In this document: in pieces, positions 17,878-35,855 of the stretch
How the letters are laid out: each line of letters starts with the position of its first letter
How positions within the stretch are numbered: position 1 is the first letter of the stretch
From: an uncultured Bdellovibrionales bacterium
GTDB taxonomy: Bacteria > Bdellovibrionota > Bdellovibrionia > Bdellovibrionales > Bdellovibrionaceae
DNA: 64,000 bases
Assembly (NCBI GenBank): GCA_903926205.1
Contig: CAIYID010000050.1
Span: 1-64,000 of the forward strand
Direction: 5' to 3'
Notes under the pieces: generated by a model
Told to the model about the DNA's origin: nothing
Databases searched by the model: none
What the model saw: the letters and a program-made list of their open reading frames with translations, nothing else
Translations under genes and position numbers: made by a program

Positions 17878-18696
17878 TTAAGGGCCTCCAAAAATAGATG
17901 TGTACAACATATGAATTGCGACGACCGTAACAACGGCCGCGAGAATTGTGCGAATTCCTTTATCTGAAATTTTTGATGACAAACCAGCGCCAATTATAGC
18001 GCCAAGAATAGTGCCAATCCCGATGGCCATCATAAAATCTAAACTGACATGTCCCATCAGAATGAAAATAAGTGTTCCGATGGTCGAAGAGATAAATAAA
18101 ATAAAATGAGAGGTCGCCACCGCGACGTGAGGAGGAACTCGCAACAAAGTAATGAGAAAGGGCACATGAATAACTCCGCCCCCAATGCCGAGCAAATTAG
18201 AAAGAAAACCAATAATAAAAGTACCAATGACTCCAACTTCGATGTTGGTGGAGTATTTGATTGTTTTTCCATTGGCCATTGTGAGGGACATTTTATCTTT
18301 CAGTACAACATGACTGGTGTTAAAGACCCAGTCGCGCATGGAGTGTAAGTAATAGGCGAGGAAAAAAAGAAAAAGACTAAAAGCTAAAGAAAAACCAGTG
18401 GCCGTGTATTGTCTCACGATGAAGGGGCCAACCGTTGCCCCCGGTAAAGCCGCCAAGGCTAGGCGCTTGGCAAAATTAAAATCAATTTTTTTTTGCATGG
18501 CATAGAGAAACGAACCAGCCATCGTATTCATAGAAATGACGCCAAGAGAAGTGCCGATGGCATCTTGAGGGCTAAATTTAAAGAGGATCATCAGAAGGGG
18601 GACGTGCAGCCAGCCACTGCCGACGCCAATAATGGTGCCAAGGGCGCCGATAACTAGGCCCAAAGTTAAGAGGGCGAGTCCCACAGTCAGTGTCAT
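17878..18696 (-). CDS. TauE/SafE-family membrane permease
   Basis: The true start is ATG 18696, overlapping the ferredoxin stop as ATGA; a longer frame from 18735 would run deep into that gene. The roughly 272-residue protein has 7-8 membrane helices in two homologous halves, each with the family's G-x-G-x-G/LxxP motif (GVGSGWLHVPLLM and GIGGGVIHVPFLI). TauE/SafE proteins move anions such as sulfite or sulfonates. In alphaproteobacterial magnetosome clusters this domain is the C-terminal half of MamO. Here the MamO-like pseudoprotease lacks it and this separate gene may supply it. A separate tauE-type gene is also reported, as I recall, in Desulfovibrio magneticus. Confidence 0.85.
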   Translation of the reverse strand: MTLTVGLALLTLGLVIGALGTIIGVGSGWLHVPLLMILFKFSPQDAIGTSLGVISMNTMAGSFLYAMQKKIDFNFAKRLALAALPGATVGPFIVRQYTATGFSLAFSLFLFFLAYYLHSMRDWVFNTSHVVLKDKMSLTMANGKTIKYSTNIEVGVIGTFIIGFLSNLLGIGGGVIHVPFLITLLRVPPHVAVATSHFILFISSTIGTLIFILMGHVSLDFMMAIGIGTILGAIIGAGLSSKISDKGIRTILAAVVTVVAIHMLYTSIFGGP

Positions 18697-19106
18697 TTTT
18701 TTACTTCTTTCATCGAAATAGCGCTGTTGGGACAAATGTTAAAGCAACTTCGACAGCCAAGACAAGAAGATACGTCCACTTCACAGTGCCCGCCGAAAAA
18801 TCCCTTATTAAAGTCTAGGGCAAAAGCTTCGGTGCAATTGGGTAAACAGTTGCGACAGCCGACGCAAATACTTTCATCAATAAAGGCCACAAGTTTCATA
18901 TTTTTTTTAACGGATCGACCGTTATTTTTACCATTGCTATCGAAGATCGCTCCTCGAGAGCAGAGACCAAAGCAAGTGCCACAGCCTTCGCATTTATCAG
19001 GATCAATGGAATGTTGTAGTTTTTTTTCGCCAGTGATGGCTCCAGACGGACATTTGCGGGCGCAGAGAGTACAACCAATACACTCTTTGCTAATTGTATA
19101 TTTCAT
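18693..19106 (-). CDS. Four-cluster [4Fe-4S] ferredoxin-like protein
   Basis: The 137-residue protein contains four complete C-x2-C-x2-C-x3-C motifs (CIGCTLCARKC, CEGCGTCFGLC, CVGCRNCLPNC, CLGCRSCFNIC), i.e. two fused bacterial ferredoxin modules joined by a basic linker (about residues 62-72). It should carry four [4Fe-4S] clusters and act as a low-potential electron carrier in the cytoplasm. It is first in the minus-strand operon with TauE, 213 nt from the divergent magnetosome operon. Fe-S proteins of this type are part of the 'mad' gene set of deltaproteobacterial magnetotactic bacteria. The exact mad number cannot be assigned by eye. Confidence 0.85.
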   Translation of the reverse strand: MKYTISKECIGCTLCARKCPSGAITGEKKLQHSIDPDKCEGCGTCFGLCSRGAIFDSNGKNNGRSVKKNMKLVAFIDESICVGCRNCLPNCTEAFALDFNKGFFGGHCEVDVSSCLGCRSCFNICPNSAISMKEVKK

Positions 19107-20148: not shown

Positions 20149-20343
20149 ATGATTCACATCGTTTCGGGCTTAACTCTATTGGGTCTAGGGATTTGGGGCG
20201 TTGTCGATCAGTGGTATTACATCGTTGATTTGTTTAGTGGCGCGGGCCCGGTGGCGTTGGTGCTATTTGGGGCTTTTGCAATATGGGTATCGATAATGAG
20301 TGAAAATAATGAAAACAAAAATGTTGAAAAAGGAAAATTATGA
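20149..20343 (+). CDS. mamI: MamI-like magnetosome membrane protein (second copy)
   Basis: The 64-residue protein repeats the MamI design: 'GLTLLGLGIWGVVDQWYYI', a D-L-F-S-G-A-G-P-V turn and a second hydrophobic helix, then a short charged tail. It is a diverged tandem duplicate of the preceding gene. The stop overlaps the mamA start (ATGA), so it is translationally coupled to MamA. Confidence 0.75.
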   Translation: MIHIVSGLTLLGLGIWGVVDQWYYIVDLFSGAGPVALVLFGAFAIWVSIMSENNENKNVEKGKL

Positions 20344-21110
20344 CAAACGAAAGAAAAAAAGAAGTTAAAAATTCAGTGGTTGATGTGAATCTCAGCATGG
20401 AAGAAAAATCAGACAAAGGCGTATCAGTGAAAGGATCTGGCTCCGCGAAAGAGGGCTCTTTTGATAAAAATTCATTCTTGGTGGGTTTTGATTATGTGAT
20501 GCACGCGACGATGGTCGTGAGTGGTAAGCTTTTGTCCGGAGCAGTGAATGCTTACAATAATGTTTTTTCTATCGATGAAAAAGAGAAAAGCCAAATTCAT
20601 GAAAATTTAGGTAAAAAATATTATAAAAGAGGCGAATATGCCAAAGCCGCAGAAGCGCTTGAATTAGCGGTTGAAGAGGGGCGTGGCACTCTACAAGTGA
20701 ATTATCTTTTGGGAAAAGCTTATTTTCAATCCAACCAATTGGACAAAGCCATTCAATGTTTTGAAAAAACGCTAAGTATGGCTCCTGGAAACAAAGATGC
20801 TCTTTATCAATTAGGCTCGACGTATTTAAAAGCAAAGAATTTCGATAAAGCCATCGAAGTTCTTAACGAAGCTTCTTTAGCTAACCCCGCGAGCGGCGAA
20901 ATTTTTTACAAAATTGGTATTGCTCATGATCGCAAAGGTGAGAACGACCAAGCCATCGCATCTTTCAAAAAAGCCACTGAGCTAGAGCCTGAAGTGGCTA
21001 AATATTATCAGCATCTGGGTTTTTCATTGCAAAGTTCAGGCGATGCGACCGAAGCGGGCAAGTGTTTCAAAAAGGTTTTAGAACTTGAAGCTAACGAGGA
21101 TTTAGAATAA
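20340..21110 (+). CDS. mamA: Magnetosome-associated TPR protein MamA
   Basis: The 256-residue protein has five tetratricopeptide repeats (about residues 80-252) with the usual W/Y-LG-Y/F-A-P spacing (for example 'LGKAYFQSNQLDKAIQCFEKTL'-type units). They are preceded by an 80-residue Lys/Ser-rich N-terminal extension not present in Magnetospirillum MamA. MamA coats the cytoplasmic face of the magnetosome and serves as a protein scaffold. It sits between MamI and MamQ, and its stop overlaps the mamQ start (TAATG). Confidence 0.85.
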   Translation: MTNERKKEVKNSVVDVNLSMEEKSDKGVSVKGSGSAKEGSFDKNSFLVGFDYVMHATMVVSGKLLSGAVNAYNNVFSIDEKEKSQIHENLGKKYYKRGEYAKAAEALELAVEEGRGTLQVNYLLGKAYFQSNQLDKAIQCFEKTLSMAPGNKDALYQLGSTYLKAKNFDKAIEVLNEASLANPASGEIFYKIGIAHDRKGENDQAIASFKKATELEPEVAKYYQHLGFSLQSSGDATEAGKCFKKVLELEANEDLE

Positions 21111-21841
21111 TGGGCGACCGAGCGACCAATATTATTAGAAATATAGCAGGAAGAAAAGCCGAAGGAGGTCCTAAAACGGGCCCTTCAAAAAACCCTTATG
21201 AAGGATTCTACGGAGTCCTTTGGACTTTGGGTTATTATCTCCGCAAAGGCTGGGTGATTGTCCTTTGTAGCGTGATCGGTTTGGTTTCGGTTTATTACTA
21301 CAATCATTTGTATGTCATGGAATGGAATGCGATTCGCGACGGGTCGTCCATCCTTGTTTATCAGCAAATGCGAAGAGATCTAAATAAGAATATTGAGCGC
21401 GTGACCTCTGCCTTTATCCTTCACGAAAAAGATATTTTTCAAAATGTGGCGGAAGCCAAATCCGAGATGCTCGGAATGTCTCCGGAAATGAAAAAAACTT
21501 TGGCGGATAAAGTTGGTCAGGTTTCAAAAAGCGATAAAAATGTCGGTCATCTTATGGGGCAATTTTTCGGTTTAGCTGAACAATATCCAGATTTGAAATT
21601 CAGTGCTGAGTTTCATTACGTAGTGCAAGCACTGATGGAGACCGAGAAATCCATTGCGGCCGCTCGAGTGGCTTACAATATGTCGGTGAATAATTATTTG
21701 ACCGTTTTAGAGACTTGTCCCGGAAATATCTTTGCCTTTATTTTTAGATATAAACCATTGCCTTATTTTGATGCAAATAAAGAGAACACAGAGTTTTCGG
21801 CGATGTTCGAGTCTCTGAAAGAAAGACCGCTGGATAAATAA
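21110..21841 (+). CDS. mamQ: MamQ, LemA-family magnetosome membrane protein
   Basis: The 243 residues contain a basic N-terminus, one membrane helix (about 46-62), and a LemA-type helical domain. That domain has the conserved N-terminal R-R-D-L-x-x-N/I stretch, E-K-D-I-F region, 'FGLAEQYPDLKFSAEFH', the E-x-x-I-A-x-A-R-x-x-YN helix, and a C-terminal P-x-N-I-F-A. MamQ is one of the few proteins essential for magnetosome vesicle formation. The MamA-MamQ-(x)-MamB order matches other magnetosome clusters. Confidence 0.88.
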   Translation: MGDRATNIIRNIAGRKAEGGPKTGPSKNPYEGFYGVLWTLGYYLRKGWVIVLCSVIGLVSVYYYNHLYVMEWNAIRDGSSILVYQQMRRDLNKNIERVTSAFILHEKDIFQNVAEAKSEMLGMSPEMKKTLADKVGQVSKSDKNVGHLMGQFFGLAEQYPDLKFSAEFHYVVQALMETEKSIAAARVAYNMSVNNYLTVLETCPGNIFAFIFRYKPLPYFDANKENTEFSAMFESLKERPLDK

Positions 21842-22555: not shown

Positions 22556-23506
22556 GTGGATGACACGCAAAAGCCTGATGGAAAAGTCAGCCAGAGTTGT
22601 GATGATGCCAGAAAAAATGGCCCCAATGCTCGCTGTGCAAAATGTCTTACCAATGTAACGGCATACAATGTCGTAGGTAATGCATTTCTAATTGTGATTA
22701 AAGCCTATCTTGGTATTGTTGGAGGTTCGAAAGCCCTTTTTGCTGATGCTATTCATTCTTTGGGCGATTTACTTGCCAGTTTTATGATGTATATCGCGCT
22801 CAAAGTGGCGGACAAACCCAAGAGCAAAAACTACGCCTACGGACGAGGTAAAGTTGAATATATTTCAGCTCTGATTATCTCCTTCTTTTTAGTCGTGCTT
22901 GGAATTTATATTTTTATTGATGCGGCCAAGGACATTTACGTGGGTCGCTTCACGGCTCCGCATTTAGTGACGGCTTGGGGCGCTCTTATTTCAATTGTCG
23001 TGAATGAGTTAATGTCCAGACAGGCCTCGTGTGTGGGCACTTTATATAATAAACCTTCGATCATAGCGGTGGCTTTAGAAAGCCGCGTGGATACTTGGTC
23101 GTCAGCGGCGGTGCTCGCTGGAATCGTGGGCGCGAAAATTTCCTATCCGATTATTGACTCGATTGCGGCTGTTCTGGTGGCGATTATTATTTTAAAATCA
23201 GCGGCGGACATGTTGATTGAGTCCACTCGAAAACTTTTAGATATCTCAATGGATGTCGATAATCTTGATAAAATTAAAGCCGTCGTTTCGGCGACCACGG
23301 GTGTTCTTGGAATCAAAAATATTCGGACTCGAGAACTAGGTTCCACCTTTGAAGTGGATATCACCGTTTTTGTCGATAAAGATTTAAGAGTGGATCAATT
23401 TCCAGAAATTAAAGAAAACATTGTTGAGGCTGTGCATTCCAAACTCGATTTCGGGGGCGAAGTGATTGTTCATTTTAAACCGTTTGTAGGGGAAAATCAT
23501 GAGTAA
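22556..23506 (+). CDS. mamB: MamB, cation diffusion facilitator
   Basis: The 316-residue protein starts at GTG 22556 behind GAGAGG. It has a Cys-containing N-terminus, six membrane helices and a C-terminal cytoplasmic ferredoxin-like metal domain (about 225-316). The transport site is intact: H67-x3-D71 in helix 2 (FADAIHSLGD) and E175-x3-D179 in helix 5. Segments such as VNELM, SCVG, and the R-x-D-x-x-SSAAV stretch agree with MamB more than MamM, as does its position after MamQ. MamB brings iron into the vesicle and is needed for its formation. The stop overlaps the next gene by 8 nt. Confidence 0.85.
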   Translation: MDDTQKPDGKVSQSCDDARKNGPNARCAKCLTNVTAYNVVGNAFLIVIKAYLGIVGGSKALFADAIHSLGDLLASFMMYIALKVADKPKSKNYAYGRGKVEYISALIISFFLVVLGIYIFIDAAKDIYVGRFTAPHLVTAWGALISIVVNELMSRQASCVGTLYNKPSIIAVALESRVDTWSSAAVLAGIVGAKISYPIIDSIAAVLVAIIILKSAADMLIESTRKLLDISMDVDNLDKIKAVVSATTGVLGIKNIRTRELGSTFEVDITVFVDKDLRVDQFPEIKENIVEAVHSKLDFGGEVIVHFKPFVGENHE

Positions 23507-24794
23507 GAATCAAGAAGGTCGCGAGATTAAAGGTGATGCTTTTTGCAGAAAAGAATTACGACCACTCCTAGTTTTATTGGTGGCTGTACTTTTGGTGACA
23601 TTGGGTTGGATCACCTACCATGAAATCAAAATGAAGCAAGATCCTGTTTACGCGGCCGAATATCACACTCGCATTCATCATCCGGGAGTGACCGATACGA
23701 CCACTAACCCTCTTGGCCAAGCCAAAAATGCGGTTATCCCTTTAATGGCACAGGGGCAAACCGTGGCCGCCGCTGCCGCCGGGGGAATTCCTCCGATCAA
23801 GCTCGGCGATATGGTGACCCATCCTAATTTTGGACAGGATTGCACGAAATGTCATGAAGTGACCGGTCCTAAAAGTCGAAGTCAAATTGCGGGTGGAAAA
23901 ATTCTTTTAACAGCAAATCAGCCTCATCCTTACTGGGGTCCTTGCACGCTTTGTCATACGGTTGTGGATTCGAAGGGAACTCCTGTCGCTTTCACGGCGA
24001 TCGATCCTCGAAGTATTCTGGGTCTTGAATTAACAGAGGCCGATGCCACTTTAACAACGAAATTAGATTTGCCTGATAAAAAAGGACCAATCATTACTAA
24101 AGTTTTAGCCGGTGGCCTGGGTGGTGAGTTGGGTTTTGAAGTGGGCGATATGTTTTACATGGTTAACAATCGCAAGATCGAAACTATTCCTGAATTTGAA
24201 CGCGCTCTTGGTGCTTTCGAAGCCGGAGATGTTGTGCGCGTGACCGTTTGGCGGCAACGAAGAGAAAAAATATTTAGATTCAGTCTGCCGGATGTGGTGG
24301 CGCAAGTGGGCTTGGGTGCTCCTAACGGACAAGATCTGATGAAAACGCCGACGGCGATTGCTATCGCGCAAATTGATCCTAATGCGGCAGTGGCAGATGC
24401 GCCTCTTCCAGCAACGGTCATTGCTGTCGCAGCGATGGGACAAGATGTGAATGCCACAATTTCGACAGATTTTGGTAGTTCGCCTTATTTTATCGTGGTG
24501 GATTTAAATAAAAATAATTTTAAAGTGATTCAAAATGCTGGTGGTACCGGCAAAATCTTGGTGAATGATCTTCTTGATATGGGAGTTGATGCGGTTGTTT
24601 GCGGACACATCGGTCGAACTCCCGCCGACAGCATGATCGAGCTGGGTATTAAAATGTATCCAGGTGTCACTGGAGATGTAAAAGGTGCGATCACCGCATT
24701 TAAACAAGGATCTTTAAAAGAGGCTAACGGTGGGGTGACTCCTGATACAACACCTGTTGGTCCGGGACTGTCTGGTCGAAGGAGAACCCTTTGA
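23499..24794 (+). CDS. mamP: MamP-like protein: magnetochrome x2, PDZ, NifX-type domain
   Basis: The 431-residue protein has an N-terminal membrane anchor (about 24-44) and an Ala/Gly linker. Two magnetochrome motifs follow (CTKCH near 115 and CTLCH near 149, each preceded by an HP-x pair), then a PDZ domain (about 170-262). A C-terminal domain (about 300-410) matches the NifX/NifB 'dinitrogenase iron-molybdenum cofactor' fold, with V-I-A-V-A-A-M-G, 'SSPYFIVVD', and 'GVDAVVCGHIG'. MamP oxidises iron for magnetite growth. The extra iron-cofactor-type domain is not part of Magnetospirillum MamP. It is coupled to the next gene by a 4-nt overlap. Confidence 0.8.
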   Translation: MSKNQEGREIKGDAFCRKELRPLLVLLVAVLLVTLGWITYHEIKMKQDPVYAAEYHTRIHHPGVTDTTTNPLGQAKNAVIPLMAQGQTVAAAAAGGIPPIKLGDMVTHPNFGQDCTKCHEVTGPKSRSQIAGGKILLTANQPHPYWGPCTLCHTVVDSKGTPVAFTAIDPRSILGLELTEADATLTTKLDLPDKKGPIITKVLAGGLGGELGFEVGDMFYMVNNRKIETIPEFERALGAFEAGDVVRVTVWRQRREKIFRFSLPDVVAQVGLGAPNGQDLMKTPTAIAIAQIDPNAAVADAPLPATVIAVAAMGQDVNATISTDFGSSPYFIVVDLNKNNFKVIQNAGGTGKILVNDLLDMGVDAVVCGHIGRTPADSMIELGIKMYPGVTGDVKGAITAFKQGSLKEANGGVTPDTTPVGPGLSGRRRTL

Positions 24795-26416
24795 AAAACG
24801 ATAATTCACTTTCAAGTAGTCCATGGTCTAATTTTGATCTCAGAACCGTCGTGATTATTGGGTTAACAATGGCGGTGGTTATTTGGACGCTTCTCTATGT
24901 CATTGATAAGCCAAATCCCAAACGGCAGGAAGAGGCTCCCATCAACATCGCGCTGAATCAGCCCGCGGCAGATCCGAATCAAGCGGCACCTGTTGCTCTT
25001 GCAAATAACGGAGCTTTTTTAGGAGCGGATCTTGAAGATATCACGCCGGATTTAATGACTCGATTTAAAATTACGGCGGATCGTGGAGTCTATGTTCGGA
25101 AGGTGCTGAATGATTCACCAGCGGAATTAGCCGATTTACGCCGAGCTGACATCATCAATAGTGTGGATGGAATAAAAATTGATGACACCGCGGAGCTAGC
25201 GAATTTTCTTCAGAGCAAAAAAGCGGGAGAGCGAATCAAAATCAGGATATTACGAAATAACAAAAAACAATCTTTGAGTATCACACTGACGGCCAAGGCC
25301 GATAAAACTAAAATTAAAATCAAATCAAAATTAGCCGCAGCAGCGCCCCTTGATGGAGATGCTTGGCTTGGATTAGATGTTCAATCTTTGGACGCGGTGA
25401 TGGTTCGTCAATTGCGACTGCCGAATTCAAGAGGTGTCGTGATCTCTCATGTGGTGGTGGCTTCTCCTGCGGCTCAAAGCGGTCTTGTTCGAGGGGATGT
25501 TGTTCGTACCATTGATAAGATGCCCGTGAACGATCGCATTGGGTTTGCTGAAATTATGGCCAATAAAAATCCTGGTGACATTGTTCAACTTGATATTTTT
25601 AGAAATGGTTTTCAGCAAGATGTGGCAGTGACAGCCGGAGTGATGCCGGTGGATCAAGCCAATGAACCTCCTCCTGCCTTGCCAGGAGCTGATATCGAAG
25701 TGGAAGTTTCTTGGTTAGGTTTGACGGTGGTCCCTATTGATCCTTTGGAGGCTAAAGAGTTGGGACTTCCTGCTGGAACAAAAGGTTTGGCAGTGGATGG
25801 ACTCAGCATAGGGCCTGCTTTTGATGCAGGTTTTCAGGTCGGTGATATTATCATGGCCATCAACGGAATGCCGACAGCTTCGCTCCGTCAATTCAAAGAA
25901 GCGACGGAGGGTGCCCGTGGCGCCATGGTTGATGTTTGGCGCGGCGGTCGGCATCGCTTTGTTACAATTGCAGCTCCCGGACTTGATCGTCAGGGAAATC
26001 AACTTCCCAATTCAGCGGCGGCATCTCAGATTGCTAAGATCCTGCCTGTGGATAATGGCATGAGGTACATTGCTATTGGAGCGATGGGCGATAAAGTGAG
26101 TGTTCAGGTTTCTCCGGTCTTTCCGAAAAGTCCTTACTTTATTATTGTGGATTTAAAAACGGGCAAGTTTAACCCCATCCTCAATCCCAATGCGGAAGCG
26201 ACGGGTATTGTTGCAGCGAAATGGCTGATGCAAAATCATATCGATGCCGTGATCATTGGGCGAATCGGTCCTCGTGCTTTTGATGAACTCAATGCCGCTA
26301 AAATTCCCGTTTATGCTGGAGTCTTGGGAAGTGTGAGTGAAGTGGTGCAAGCTTTTCGCGAAGGTCAGCTTAAACCAAGTGTGACCGTGTTAGGTTCCAC
26401 ATTGAAAACTAAATAA
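24791..26416 (+). CDS. Membrane-anchored triple-PDZ protein with NifX-type C-terminus (MamE C-terminal-like)
   Basis: The TTG start at 24791 has AAGGAG at the correct distance. The 541-residue protein has one membrane anchor (about 13-37) and three PDZ domains (about 75-175, 195-290 and 305-395), each with the GVxVxxVxxxSPA- or G-L-A-type core. A C-terminal NifX-type domain (about 415-525; Y-I-A-I-G-A-M-G, 'SPYFIIVD', 'DAVIIGRIG') follows. There is no protease domain and no heme motif. The layout recalls the separate C-terminal half of the split MamE of Desulfovibrio magneticus. It shares the NifX-like domain with its upstream neighbour, so the two probably arose by duplication or fusion. Confidence 0.75.
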   Translation: MKNDNSLSSSPWSNFDLRTVVIIGLTMAVVIWTLLYVIDKPNPKRQEEAPINIALNQPAADPNQAAPVALANNGAFLGADLEDITPDLMTRFKITADRGVYVRKVLNDSPAELADLRRADIINSVDGIKIDDTAELANFLQSKKAGERIKIRILRNNKKQSLSITLTAKADKTKIKIKSKLAAAAPLDGDAWLGLDVQSLDAVMVRQLRLPNSRGVVISHVVVASPAAQSGLVRGDVVRTIDKMPVNDRIGFAEIMANKNPGDIVQLDIFRNGFQQDVAVTAGVMPVDQANEPPPALPGADIEVEVSWLGLTVVPIDPLEAKELGLPAGTKGLAVDGLSIGPAFDAGFQVGDIIMAINGMPTASLRQFKEATEGARGAMVDVWRGGRHRFVTIAAPGLDRQGNQLPNSAAASQIAKILPVDNGMRYIAIGAMGDKVSVQVSPVFPKSPYFIIVDLKTGKFNPILNPNAEATGIVAAKWLMQNHIDAVIIGRIGPRAFDELNAAKIPVYAGVLGSVSEVVQAFREGQLKPSVTVLGSTLKTK

Positions 26417-26426
26417 TGAGGTAAGT

Positions 26427-27275
26427 TTGTTTCCGTTGGTGGGTTTTAGTATTCTAAGTTTTTTTGTGACGATGCTGGCGGCAACGCCGGCATCTGCGCA
26501 AGCGGCAGCTTTGCCGCCAGCGACAGTTTCACCGCAAGTCAGGGGGCCTGCGCAAATTACAGAGCCCGCGCAAGGAGTTGCTCCCGCCGTACAGGTTTTA
26601 CCTGCAAAACCAGGAGTGACTCGTGGACCTCGGGCTATTGAGCTGAAAATCAAAGAAGCCGTAGCGGCGATCAGGCCTGCCACTGTGAACTTGAAGGCCC
26701 TTCGGCAAATGCCCAACGGGAGTTTCGTTCAAAGTATTGGTTCGGGAATTTTAATTTCTGAAGCTGGGTATATTTTAACCAATGAACACGTGGTTGGTAC
26801 TTCTAATAATATCGAAGTCAATTTGTGGAGAGCCAACGGCAAAAAATATAAAGCTCGAATTGTGGGCGTTGATAAAAAATTAGATTTGGCTTTGCTGCGA
26901 ATTAGAAGTCGTAACGGAGAGCTTTTTTCCGCCGCGAGAGTGAATGAACTTGCAAAACCGCGTTCGGGTGATCGTGTGATTGCCATTGGTAACCCTTTTG
27001 GGCTCTCGCACACTGTGACCAGTGGTATTGTTGGGAGCACGGGGCGGACCTTAGCCGTTGGCGAAATTGTCTATGAGGGATTGATTCAAGTTGATGCTCC
27101 GATCAATCAAGGAAATAGCGGTGGCCCCTTGGTGAATTTTAACGGAGACGTGATTGGTATTAATTCAGCAGTTTTAGCGGAAGATCCCAAAAAAGGTAAT
27201 TTTGTCGGACAGGGTTTTGCCATACCGATTGATGTGGCGATGGATTTTGCTCGTCAGTTTGCAAGGCTCAAATGA
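26427..27275 (+). CDS. mamE: MamE-type HtrA/DegP serine protease domain
   Basis: The TTG start at 26427 follows GAGG. The 282 residues have a signal/anchor helix, a Pro/Ala/Val linker (about 30-65), and a trypsin-like HtrA domain with intact triad: H121 (NEHVVG), D153 (KLDLALLRI) and S231 (GNSGGPL). It ends right after the protease domain, without PDZ or magnetochrome parts. Those parts are on the two proteins encoded just upstream, so MamE is split into separate polypeptides. MamE activity starts biomineralisation maturation in Magnetospirillum. Confidence 0.85.
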   Translation: MFPLVGFSILSFFVTMLAATPASAQAAALPPATVSPQVRGPAQITEPAQGVAPAVQVLPAKPGVTRGPRAIELKIKEAVAAIRPATVNLKALRQMPNGSFVQSIGSGILISEAGYILTNEHVVGTSNNIEVNLWRANGKKYKARIVGVDKKLDLALLRIRSRNGELFSAARVNELAKPRSGDRVIAIGNPFGLSHTVTSGIVGSTGRTLAVGEIVYEGLIQVDAPINQGNSGGPLVNFNGDVIGINSAVLAEDPKKGNFVGQGFAIPIDVAMDFARQFARLK

Positions 27276-27299
27276 CATTATTTGGAGAGTTTGATTATT

Positions 27300-28301
27300 A
27301 TGACTGAAAATAACGAAAAAAATAATAGTCCTAGAAAAACTCATTTGCGAGAGCAAATTAAAAAAGGATTGACTGGAATTTTAGTCATTAAATTATTGTT
27401 CGGCATGGCGGTGGGTATTTACCTTCTTAAAAAAGTCTGGCCGAGCAAGGCACCTCAAGCGCAAACAACCATTGTCGGCGAAGGGGAATTCGGACCTCGT
27501 GGTCAACAGCAAATAGAGCCACAATTTGAGCCAAGAGTTGAACCCAGAATAGAACCCAGAGTGGAAGTGAATGGCGTTTTAGAGCCCCGCTTAGAAGGGG
27601 CTGGGGCTGCGGTCCAAGTTCCGGTACCAGTGATCGATGAGACCACCGATAGCCTCAGTGATATTGTGGGTAAAGTTCGGCCTGCGGTTGTTAAAGTGAT
27701 TGTGGTACCGACGGAAAACTTAAAAGCACCAGAGACCGGAATCAAAATGGGCGATCCTTTTTGGATCGATAACAATCAAGCCGTGGGCTCAGGCGTGATC
27801 ATCAATGAAAAAGGTTTATTTTTAACCACGAAGCATGTCGTCGGTAACAACAATAATCTACAAGTGACTTTATATCATGCCGGACAAAAACAATACACGG
27901 CCAGAGTGGTGGCTCGAGATCCTGATTCTCCGCTGGTTTTGTGTAAAATAAGAGCGCCAGCGGGGCAAAAATTTTCCTTTGCAAAAATGGGAGACTCTGA
28001 TCGCCTTCACACGGGTGATGTAATTTTGGCGATCGGGAGCCCTTTTTCTCTTTCAGGCACGGTGACATCCGGGATTATCAGCGGCAAAAAAGATGTCGTG
28101 GTCGAAGGCGCTACGGTACAAAATGCGATTGTGCTCGATGCTAGTATTAACGATGGTAATGCCGGCGGCCCCTTGGTCAATGTGGATGGCGATGTGATCG
28201 GAATTACTTTTGCTTCTTATGTTCAAGAGGGAAGTTTTACAGGTCTTGGATTTGCGGTTCCGATTAATTTTGCTAAAGAAATGTGGGCGAAAACTCCATA
28301 G
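27300..28301 (+). CDS. mamO: MamO-like pseudoprotease
   Basis: ATG 27300 is preferred over the earlier in-frame start at 27282. The roughly 333-residue protein has an anchor helix (about 25-42), a Pro/Glu-rich linker with four P-R/Q-x-E-like repeats, and a trypsin fold in which His179 (TKHVVG) remains. The Asp position is Pro211 (DSPLVLCKI) and the Ser position is Ala288 (GNAGGPL). It therefore cannot cleave by the normal mechanism, as is established for MamO, which binds metal and promotes nucleation. The TauE domain of alphaproteobacterial MamO is absent. Confidence 0.8.
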   Translation: MTENNEKNNSPRKTHLREQIKKGLTGILVIKLLFGMAVGIYLLKKVWPSKAPQAQTTIVGEGEFGPRGQQQIEPQFEPRVEPRIEPRVEVNGVLEPRLEGAGAAVQVPVPVIDETTDSLSDIVGKVRPAVVKVIVVPTENLKAPETGIKMGDPFWIDNNQAVGSGVIINEKGLFLTTKHVVGNNNNLQVTLYHAGQKQYTARVVARDPDSPLVLCKIRAPAGQKFSFAKMGDSDRLHTGDVILAIGSPFSLSGTVTSGIISGKKDVVVEGATVQNAIVLDASINDGNAGGPLVNVDGDVIGITFASYVQEGSFTGLGFAVPINFAKEMWAKTP

Positions 28302-29498: not shown

Positions 29499-30368
29499 AT
29501 GAAATATTCTGATTGTGATGATTGTGCGATAAGAATTGCTTGGATCGGTGTCTTTACCAGCATGATTTTAGCTTTGCTAAAATATTATATCGGTTGGGTC
29601 GGGGGCTCCGCAGGCGTTATGGCCGGCGCGATTCATTCCACGACTTGCATGATCTCCTCGGGGTCTATTTTATTTGCGCATGCCTTTTCAAAAAAAGATG
29701 CGGATGATCGCTTTCATTATGGTTATGGCAAAGTGGAATTCGTGCTTTCGGCCGTTGTAAGTCTTTCAATTTTAATCATTCTTTCTTTGTTCTTGATCTC
29801 AAATTTACGGGTTTTGATGACCGAAGTTCATCATATTCCTCACGTCACAACGGTGGTCATTGCGGCGGCTTCAATTATTATTAATGAAACCCTTTATCGA
29901 CATTTTATCTGCGCGGGAAAGCAAACCAACAGTTCGGCAGTCACTGCGGCGGCCTGGGCCGTGCGCTCGGATGCATTGACTTCGCTTGTGGTGCTGATTG
30001 GGGTTATCGGGGCCAGCTTAAATATTAAGCACTTGGACCCTGTGATCGCCATTGGAATCTCAATCATTTTGTTTAAAACTGTGGGCACAAATCTTATTAA
30101 CTCTGCGAGAAGTTTAATGGATTATTCGGCCGATGATTCATTAGCTCGTCGTATTAAGCCTTTGATGGCAACACTGCCCTCGGTTCTTCTTGTAAAGCAT
30201 ATTAAAACCAGGCCCATGGGCCAACATACTAAAGTGGATATTGAGCTCCAGGTGGCTCCTTCTTTGACAGTCAGTGAGATCAGTCAAATTGAAAGTGATG
30301 TCATTAAACTCATCAAGAAAAACGAAAAGAAAATCGGCGATATTTCAGTTGATTTTTTTGACCACTAG
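29499..30368 (+). CDS. mamM: MamM-type cation diffusion facilitator with altered metal site
   Basis: The 289-residue CDF has a short Cys-containing N-terminus (C-D-D-C), six helices and a C-terminal metal domain. The helix-2 motif is GAIHSTTC, so H46 remains but the Asp four residues later is Cys50. In helix 5 the pair is A154-x3-D158, so one ligand is lost. YGKVEF and L-D-P agree with MamM; the N-E-T-L-Y-R and S-D-A-L-T segments are closer to MamB. The MamM name rests mainly on position after MamL. It could be a transport-altered partner that forms a heterodimer with MamB. Confidence 0.7.
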   Translation: MKYSDCDDCAIRIAWIGVFTSMILALLKYYIGWVGGSAGVMAGAIHSTTCMISSGSILFAHAFSKKDADDRFHYGYGKVEFVLSAVVSLSILIILSLFLISNLRVLMTEVHHIPHVTTVVIAAASIIINETLYRHFICAGKQTNSSAVTAAAWAVRSDALTSLVVLIGVIGASLNIKHLDPVIAIGISIILFKTVGTNLINSARSLMDYSADDSLARRIKPLMATLPSVLLVKHIKTRPMGQHTKVDIELQVAPSLTVSEISQIESDVIKLIKKNEKKIGDISVDFFDH

Positions 30369-34216: not shown

Positions 34217-34729
34217 ATGGAAAATTCAATCGAACTTGAAAATGAAACAATTAAAGACCTGCATCACGATGTTTTGGGCGATATCGCAGCGACCACGAGT
34301 AAGGCTTTTGGTTTTATGGCGAATGCTTTTGATAATGCCGTTGCGAAACTAAATAAACAAATCAGAGGCATTGATACGGCCCATATTACCAAAGTCTGCG
34401 TTGATGCAAAAAATGACATTGTATCGAATGTCCGCCATAGCGAGGTCTGTTCGACAGCTTGTTCTGGTGTATTTTCAAATTTACAAAACGCGATAAAATC
34501 CATGTTTTTCGGAACGCCCCTTGGAGTGACCGTCGCCCAATTGGTGAATGGTGAGATCACAGAAGAAGATCCTCAACTGAGAGAATATTATATGAGTCTC
34601 GGTATGGATATTGTGAAGTTCACACGAGAGGCCAGCGCGGCAAAAAATAGCGAAAATTTAGTCATTATTAAAACTTCAAATTATAGATTTTCACAAGTGA
34701 GACACAGCAATGACGACAGACAGCAGTGA
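34217..34729 (+). CDS. Unknown soluble protein upstream of mamK
   Basis: ATG 34217 follows TGAGGT; the earlier in-frame start at 34205 is less likely. The roughly 170-residue protein is mostly helical, with two cysteines close together (SEVCSTACSG) and a moderately hydrophobic segment 'FFGTPLGVTVAQL'. No family is recognised. Its 3' end overlaps mamK by 20 nt, so the two are translationally linked and the product may assist MamK. Confidence 0.6.
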   Translation: MENSIELENETIKDLHHDVLGDIAATTSKAFGFMANAFDNAVAKLNKQIRGIDTAHITKVCVDAKNDIVSNVRHSEVCSTACSGVFSNLQNAIKSMFFGTPLGVTVAQLVNGEITEEDPQLREYYMSLGMDIVKFTREASAAKNSENLVIIKTSNYRFSQVRHSNDDRQQ

Positions 34730-35855
34730 TAACGATAAGAATATTCTCGAAAAACTGATTGGTGGAATTAAAGAAGCTGTTGATGTTAACAGCACGGACA
34801 AGCTTCTTGAAAAAGTCAGTGTACTTCAAGAGTCTGAAAAGCTCGTTGATGAGAAAAAAACTGAGACTTCAGCAAAGAGTCCTGTTGGCTTAGACGTTGG
34901 CACCAGTCGCATTGTGGGTTTAAGGATTGTTGATAATCAACTTGTTCCTAATGATCAGCTCAATGCCTTTTTTACGATTCCTCCCTCCATATTTGCCAAA
35001 GACATGCTCAATAAAAATAAAATCCAACATGTTGAGCTTGAAAATGGCCAATTGGCAGTTCTGAGCTATGGCGCGCAGGAGTTTGGTAATATTTTTAACG
35101 GTGAAATTCGTCGGCCAATGAGTCACGGTCTTTTAAAAGCCGAAGAACCTGAAGCTATTCAGATCATCAAAGAAATCATCAAACTCGCAGTAGGTAAGCC
35201 GAAAGAAATTGGTACGAGCTTATGCTTTGGTGTTCCGGCTCCTAAGGCCGGCTTTGAGAGCGATCTTATTTTCCATGAATCCATGATCAAACGCTATTTG
35301 GTGGGTTTAGGTTACAAAGCCAAAAGTATCACTGAAGGCATGGCCATTGTTCTTTCTGAGCTTTCCCGGGATAATTTTACGGGCATTGGTATCAGCATGG
35401 GTGGCGGAATGTGCAATGTTTGTTTCTCTTTTTTATCAGTGCCGATCATCGTGTTTAGTGTTTCTAAGGGCGGTGATGATATTGATTTGAATGTTTCTCG
35501 GGTGGTGAATGAAACGCGCAATCGTGTGCGAGTAATGAAAGAAGAGTCCCTCGATCTTTCGCGCGCACCTCGAAATAAAATTGAAAACGCTTTTGAAATT
35601 TATTATGAAGATTTGATTTTAAGTGTTTTGACTCAATTGAATGCCGTGCTTTCACAGGCGCAAAATATGCCTAAACTTCATCAGGCGATACCTATTGTTT
35701 TGGCGGGCGGTACGTGTATGCCTATTGGTTTCAAAATGAAATTTGAGAAAATTTTGAAACAAGTGACTTTGCCAATTCAAATTTCAGAAGTTCGTATGGC
35801 GACGGATCCGATGAGAGCCACTGCCAAGGGCGCTTTGATCAATGCAGGAGTTTAA
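34710..35855 (+). CDS. mamK: MamK, actin-like magnetosome filament protein
   Basis: The 381-residue protein has an N-terminal extension of about 55 residues. The actin/MreB fold follows, with phosphate-1 motif LDVGTSRIVGL (about 58-68), phosphate-2 motif IGISMGGGMCNV, and adenosine motif VLAGGTCMPIGF. This matches MamK, which forms dynamic filaments that hold the magnetosome chain in line. Its operon also encodes a PilZ-like protein and a MinD-type ATPase directly downstream (TAATG overlap). It is the most canonical of three actin-like proteins in the window. Confidence 0.85.
   Translation: MTTDSSDNDKNILEKLIGGIKEAVDVNSTDKLLEKVSVLQESEKLVDEKKTETSAKSPVGLDVGTSRIVGLRIVDNQLVPNDQLNAFFTIPPSIFAKDMLNKNKIQHVELENGQLAVLSYGAQEFGNIFNGEIRRPMSHGLLKAEEPEAIQIIKEIIKLAVGKPKEIGTSLCFGVPAPKAGFESDLIFHESMIKRYLVGLGYKAKSITEGMAIVLSELSRDNFTGIGISMGGGMCNVCFSFLSVPIIVFSVSKGGDDIDLNVSRVVNETRNRVRVMKEESLDLSRAPRNKIENAFEIYYEDLILSVLTQLNAVLSQAQNMPKLHQAIPIVLAGGTCMPIGFKMKFEKILKQVTLPIQISEVRMATDPMRATAKGALINAGV

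Follow-up and report, generated by a model that had tools for sequence, protein, structure and literature searches.

The closest described counterparts of the locus analyzed here are the FmpA and FmpB proteins of Desulfovibrio magneticus RS-1. In that species DMR_41100, which encodes an N-terminal magnetochrome region, a PDZ domain, and a C-terminal NifX/NifB domain, was renamed FmpB (Rahn-Lee 2015; PMC4287615), and its neighbor with three PDZ domains is FmpA (PMC4287615), also designated MamE-Cter (DMR_41090). An Fe-Mo domain has been reported on both FmpA and FmpB (Russell 2025; PMC12748827), early-stage magnetosomes are enriched in both proteins, and crystals were fewer, smaller, and misshapen in mutants predicted to lack the Fe-Mo domain of either one (PMC12748827). 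MamP is a second point of comparison, and its magnetochromes lie C-terminal to the PDZ domain (PMC3971196). The superfamily to which the NifX-type domain belongs includes proteins that bind NifB-co or FeMo-co: H121 of the His-Phe-Gly (HFG) motif is the key FeMo-co ligand in NafY (PMC8496260), and H35 of NifX ligates NifB-co (PMC13128457).

The fmpB-type gene and its neighbors

The window, a stretch of 64,000 nucleotides from an uncultured Bdellovibrionales bacterium, contains an open reading frame at 23499-24794 (+ strand, as are all features below unless stated) that starts with ATG and encodes 431 amino acids. A membrane helix was predicted near the N-terminus (residues 21-41; 23559-23621) from a hydrophobic run and an AF2 helix at residues 13-47. 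The first magnetochrome (residues 99-121; 23793-23861), with CTKCH at 115-119 and H108, fell below the detection level of Pfam and was recognized by eye. The second (residues 135-156; 23901-23966), with CTLCH at 149-153 and H143, was detected with the Pfam MCR model (PF18509; 37.6 bits, cut-off 30.4). These are followed by a PDZ core (residues 198-252; 24090-24254), which scored 27.3 bits against a cut-off of 27 (PDZ_6, PF17820) and matched HtrA/DegQ PDZ domains in Foldseek searches, and by a NifX-fold tail (residues 305-412; 24411-24734). The C-terminal NifX-type domain proposed in the initial annotation was borne out by Pfam, in which Nitro_FeMo-Co (PF02579) matched residues 319-402 with 60.6 bits (gathering threshold 26.3; E=1.9e-16). 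The full-length AF2 model had low confidence in the heme part and served only for the PDZ domain and the tail.

This gene is one of only two open reading frames of at least 70 amino acids in the window that contain any CxxCH motif, and its product was the sole match to the magnetochrome model found in the genome. Both CxxCH motifs, H108, and H143 were invariant across nine relatives. The two histidines, located 7 and 6 residues upstream of their respective CxxCH motifs, are the candidate sixth heme ligands. Heme attachment is plausible because the genome contains two cytochrome c assembly-type genes. The side on which heme would be attached indicates that the N-terminus is presumably cytoplasmic and the remainder of the protein lumenal.

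The magnetochrome-PDZ portion had been likened to MamP. Both CxxCH motifs and the PDZ domain were confirmed, and the protein shares with MamP a membrane anchor, tandem magnetochromes, and a single PDZ domain. However, identity with MamP was rejected: the score against the NCBIfam MamP model (NF040965) was 38.8 bits, compared with an equivalog cut-off of 300, the magnetochromes (99-156) precede the PDZ domain (198-252), the reverse of the order in MamP, and MamP has no NifX tail. The domain content is that of RS-1 FmpB, as is the position beside a multi-PDZ fmpA gene in a magnetosome gene cluster. The gene at 23499-24794 can be assigned as the fmpB of a magnetosome gene cluster in Bdellovibrionota, and its probable orthology to DMR_41100, a protein from a different phylum, is drawn from the published description and from gene context. 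The fusion of magnetochrome, PDZ, and NifX-type tail, which the initial annotation did not associate with Magnetospirillum MamP, is an architecture already known from RS-1 FmpB (PMC4287615) and from the later account of FmpA and FmpB (PMC12748827).

The next gene (24791-26416), which the initial annotation did not mention, bears the same NifX-fold tail (26105-26359; Nitro_FeMo-Co at residues 439-523, E=4.1e-16). Pfam searches and an alignment with eight relatives indicated that its product has a membrane helix and three PDZ domains. It matches FmpA of RS-1 in its three PDZ domains and Fe-Mo domain and, unlike FmpB, FmpA has no magnetochrome.

The pair is part of a cluster in the order TPR, LemA, cation diffusion facilitator (CDF), fmpB, fmpA, two trypsin-like genes, and CDF. 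The first three were a mamA-type TPR protein (20340-21110; Pfam TPR), a mamQ-type LemA protein (21110-21841; profile searches), and a mamB/mamM-type CDF protein (22556-23506) that overlaps the start of fmpB and scored 239.7 bits against NCBIfam MamB, under the cut-off of 350. Downstream of fmpA, profile searches identified two mamE/mamO-type trypsin-like proteins (26427-27275 and 27282-28301), the first without PDZ or magnetochrome domains, followed by the further CDF gene at 29499. A CxxCH scan found no such motif in the MamE/MamO-type proteins of the cluster. Only two copies of PF02579 were present in the genome, both in the fmpB-fmpA pair, and no nitrogenase-type protein (PF00148) was found anywhere in that genome. 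The domain occurred in just 21 of the 359 genomes of the phylum. This scarcity, together with the location of both copies in the pair, indicates that the domain is apparently tied to the magnetosome cluster in this organism.

Other genes of the region were also recorded. A TauE/SafE sulfite exporter (17878-18735, - strand) and a ferredoxin containing several [4Fe-4S] motifs (18693-19106, - strand) are oriented divergently to the magnetosome genes; in RS-1, mutants in TauE are non-magnetic (PMC4287615). An actin-like protein (34710-35855; Pfam Volactin, E=4.8e-71) could represent the actin-like magnetosome gene of the group. The segment 46201-48876, within the magnetosome region, encodes a FeoB-type ferrous iron transporter and, after it, a protein with iron-dependent repressor and FeoA domains.

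Fold and ligand position of the tail

A tail model built from 24 magnetosomal tails was predicted with high confidence (AF2 pLDDT 92, pTM 0.85). In Foldseek searches the first matches were TM1290 (1rdu), PH0822, ORP, TM1816, and MTH1175, followed by NifX and NafY; the structures matched included 1rdu, 2yx6, 2wfb (ORP), 1p90 (NafY), and 9ian, in which NifX is complexed with NifEN. The query-normalized TM-scores were 0.62 to NifX (9ian_F) and 0.68 to NafY (1p90), so that the structural comparison with NifX and NafY that had been proposed was favorable. The Pfam E-value, the model confidence, and the Foldseek matches ruled out a chance match, and by both profile score and fold the tail belongs to the Nitro_FeMo-Co superfamily.

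NifX and NafY have the same fold as the FmpB tail, but the tail lacks the HFG cofactor histidine, is probably extracytoplasmic, and is fused to hemes. The nearest solved relatives, by sequence or by fold, were IssA/MTH1175/TM1290 and ORP (1rdu, 1eo1, 2wfb), which unlike FmpB are stand-alone proteins without heme or PDZ domains. The best sequence matches were TM1290 and MTH1175. In a FastTree phylogeny the magnetosomal tails grouped with Arg-type proteins, TM1290, and MTH1175 (SH-like support 0.94) and away from NifB, although with about 100 positions this is weak evidence and the group includes four divergent sequences from Magnetococcia.

The position of the HFG motif reads DFG in the window FmpB tail, which thus lacks the histidine of the NifX/NafY/NifB cofactor-binding group. 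None of 32 magnetosomal tails had histidine in the ligand column, and two had arginine; in 30 non-magnetosomal domains the column contained histidine in 67% and arginine in 33%. The HFG motif itself was absent from all 30 magnetosomal domains aligned with these. Only one Asn and one Leu were invariant in the 24 magnetosomal tails, with one Tyr nearly so; invariant His, Cys, Asp, or Glu residues were absent. The tail accordingly has the fold that had been expected of it, but not a conserved metal-contact region. Because the cofactor-binding histidine is absent throughout the magnetosomal tails, the name "dinitrogenase Fe-Mo domain" is misleading for them.

Distribution of the pair and related fusions

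Adjacent fmpB and fmpA genes with tails on both were found in ten genomes from at least two phyla (the window genome, G327, G328, G115, G119, G120, G121, G369, G370, and G407). Two of these, G369 and G407, are from another phylum than the window, one represented by 46 genomes in the set. Wherever the flanks could be read fully, the pair had a CDF gene on one side and trypsin-like genes on the other. A search among Nitrospinota was empty and carries no weight either way. Identity to the window FmpB was 63% in G327 and G328, and about 24-30% in the other genomes measured. Over the two genes (23499-26416), FmpB and FmpA were 63-65% identical to their counterparts at L033 and L034, in genomes related to the window genome at the phylum level only. 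No full FmpB was found in the family and order relatives searched. This similarity to phylum-level relatives, together with the lack of a full FmpB in closer ones, suggests horizontal transfer of the cluster.

Whether the tail is a general feature of magnetochrome proteins was addressed by a survey of Magnetococcia, which led us to reject the idea. Magnetochrome matches were present in 48 of the 48 Magnetococcia genomes, but among the magnetochrome matches listed, none was on the same contig as a PF02579 match other than in G456, with more than 400 kb separating the two. Thirty proteins with at least two CxxCH motifs had no match to the tail.

Several genomes encoded an FmpB with two tandem tails, and in two of them (L036 and L038) the fmpB gene also contained four CxxCH motifs. 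For the tandem FmpB proteins, the FastTree phylogeny placed the second tail with the tail of single-tail FmpB proteins (support 0.81, modest) and the first with FmpA tails (0.77, modest).

Tails were also found in other fusions. A YeeE/YedE-type Sulf_transp permease (PF04143) was joined to two magnetochrome motifs, a PDZ domain, and two NifX-fold tails in G118 (L008, 1117-3804, - strand; 896 amino acids) and in G119 (L019, 97-2826; 910 amino acids), and to a PDZ domain and two tails without magnetochrome in G115 (L099, 3916-6309; 798 amino acids). In G119 a LemA/MamQ-type gene directly follows the fusion (L063, 10309-10944). CDF proteins of approximately 390-400 amino acids with a C-terminal Nitro_FeMo-Co domain were encoded in G369 (L056), G115 (L088), and G121 (L101), each of which also has FmpB. 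G369 had, in addition, a second magnetosome-like cluster with trypsin-like, CDF, and LemA genes (L065, 3707-11536), which encodes a 732-amino acid protein that lacks CxxCH and has two domains each of the PDZ and NifX-fold types. No publication on fusions of Sulf_transp with the FmpB module was found in the open-licence literature, and neither tandem tails nor CDF-tail fusions are named in the FmpA/FmpB literature cited here. The tandem tails and the Sulf_transp-FmpB fusions are apparently undescribed.

Possible roles of FmpB and its tail

The explanation that we favor, with a probability of roughly 0.7 for the whole, builds on the observed domain content, operon position, NifX fold, and loss of the ligand histidine. 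FmpB would be produced together with its partner FmpA and anchored in the magnetosome membrane, with two hemes, the PDZ domain, and the tail in the lumen. The hemes may exchange electrons with iron and thereby tune the balance of Fe(II) and Fe(III) during early crystal growth, in line with proposals made for other magnetochrome proteins. A scaffold formed by the PDZ domain and the tail could bring FmpB together with FmpA and the MamE/MamO-type proteins where the crystal is nascent. As a repurposed domain of the NifX superfamily, the tail would most likely recognize a partner protein or a mineral or iron surface, rather than holding a FeMo-co-like cluster by means of the canonical histidine. 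The RS-1 alleles fit a role for the tail, with tail function and protein stability confounded in them: they are truncations or frameshifts, and their phenotype may thus reflect loss of the protein rather than of the tail.

An alternative, which we consider unlikely, is that the tail is IssA-like: lacking precise ligands, it would act as a nucleation site or holder for a mineral precursor, an anionic polymer of iron(-sulfide) or ferric nature, that the hemes then convert. Pyrococcus IssA, which stores thioferrate, belongs to this domain family; Fe and S bind to its domain in isolation, and MTH1175 falls into the IssA clade (PMC5524996); the sequence matches to TM1290 and MTH1175 and the grouping of the tails with such proteins point in the same direction, as do the sulfur transporters located beside the module (TauE) or fused to it (Sulf_transp). 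However, the acidic residues stressed as conserved in IssA (PMC5524996) have no invariant counterpart in the magnetosomal tails, and in place of the long cationic C-terminus of IssA, rich in Gly and aromatic residues (PMC5524996), the window protein ends in GPGLSGRRRTL, where the basic portion is only the short SGRRRTL. Nor did other Bdellovibrionota yield a greigite cluster. An extension of this alternative, in which FmpA and FmpB tails would be IssA-like scaffolds for an iron(-sulfur) mineral precursor and sulfur permeases (fused in three genomes as Sulf_transp, next to the cluster as TauE) would provide its sulfur, with magnetosome growth thus proceeding by way of a sulfur-containing iron precursor, has the slightest probability of the ideas considered here.

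The least supported of the three readings, and a very improbable one, is that of the initial annotation, in which the tail genuinely carries an iron cofactor or Fe-S cluster and passes iron clusters on to the growing crystal: it is consistent with the NifX fold and with cofactor binding elsewhere in the superfamily, but the sequences give it no support, with the ligand histidine missing from every one of the 32 magnetosomal tails, none of Cys, His, Asp, or Glu invariant, no nitrogenase-type protein found in the genome, and a predicted lumenal location apart from cytoplasmic cluster assembly.

The gene pair described here is the FmpB-FmpA module of non-Alphaproteobacterial magnetotactic bacteria. 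The data presented above extend this module to further Bdellovibrionota and to another phylum, and the tandem tails and sulfur-permease fusions provide new and concrete places in which the function of the tail may be tested.
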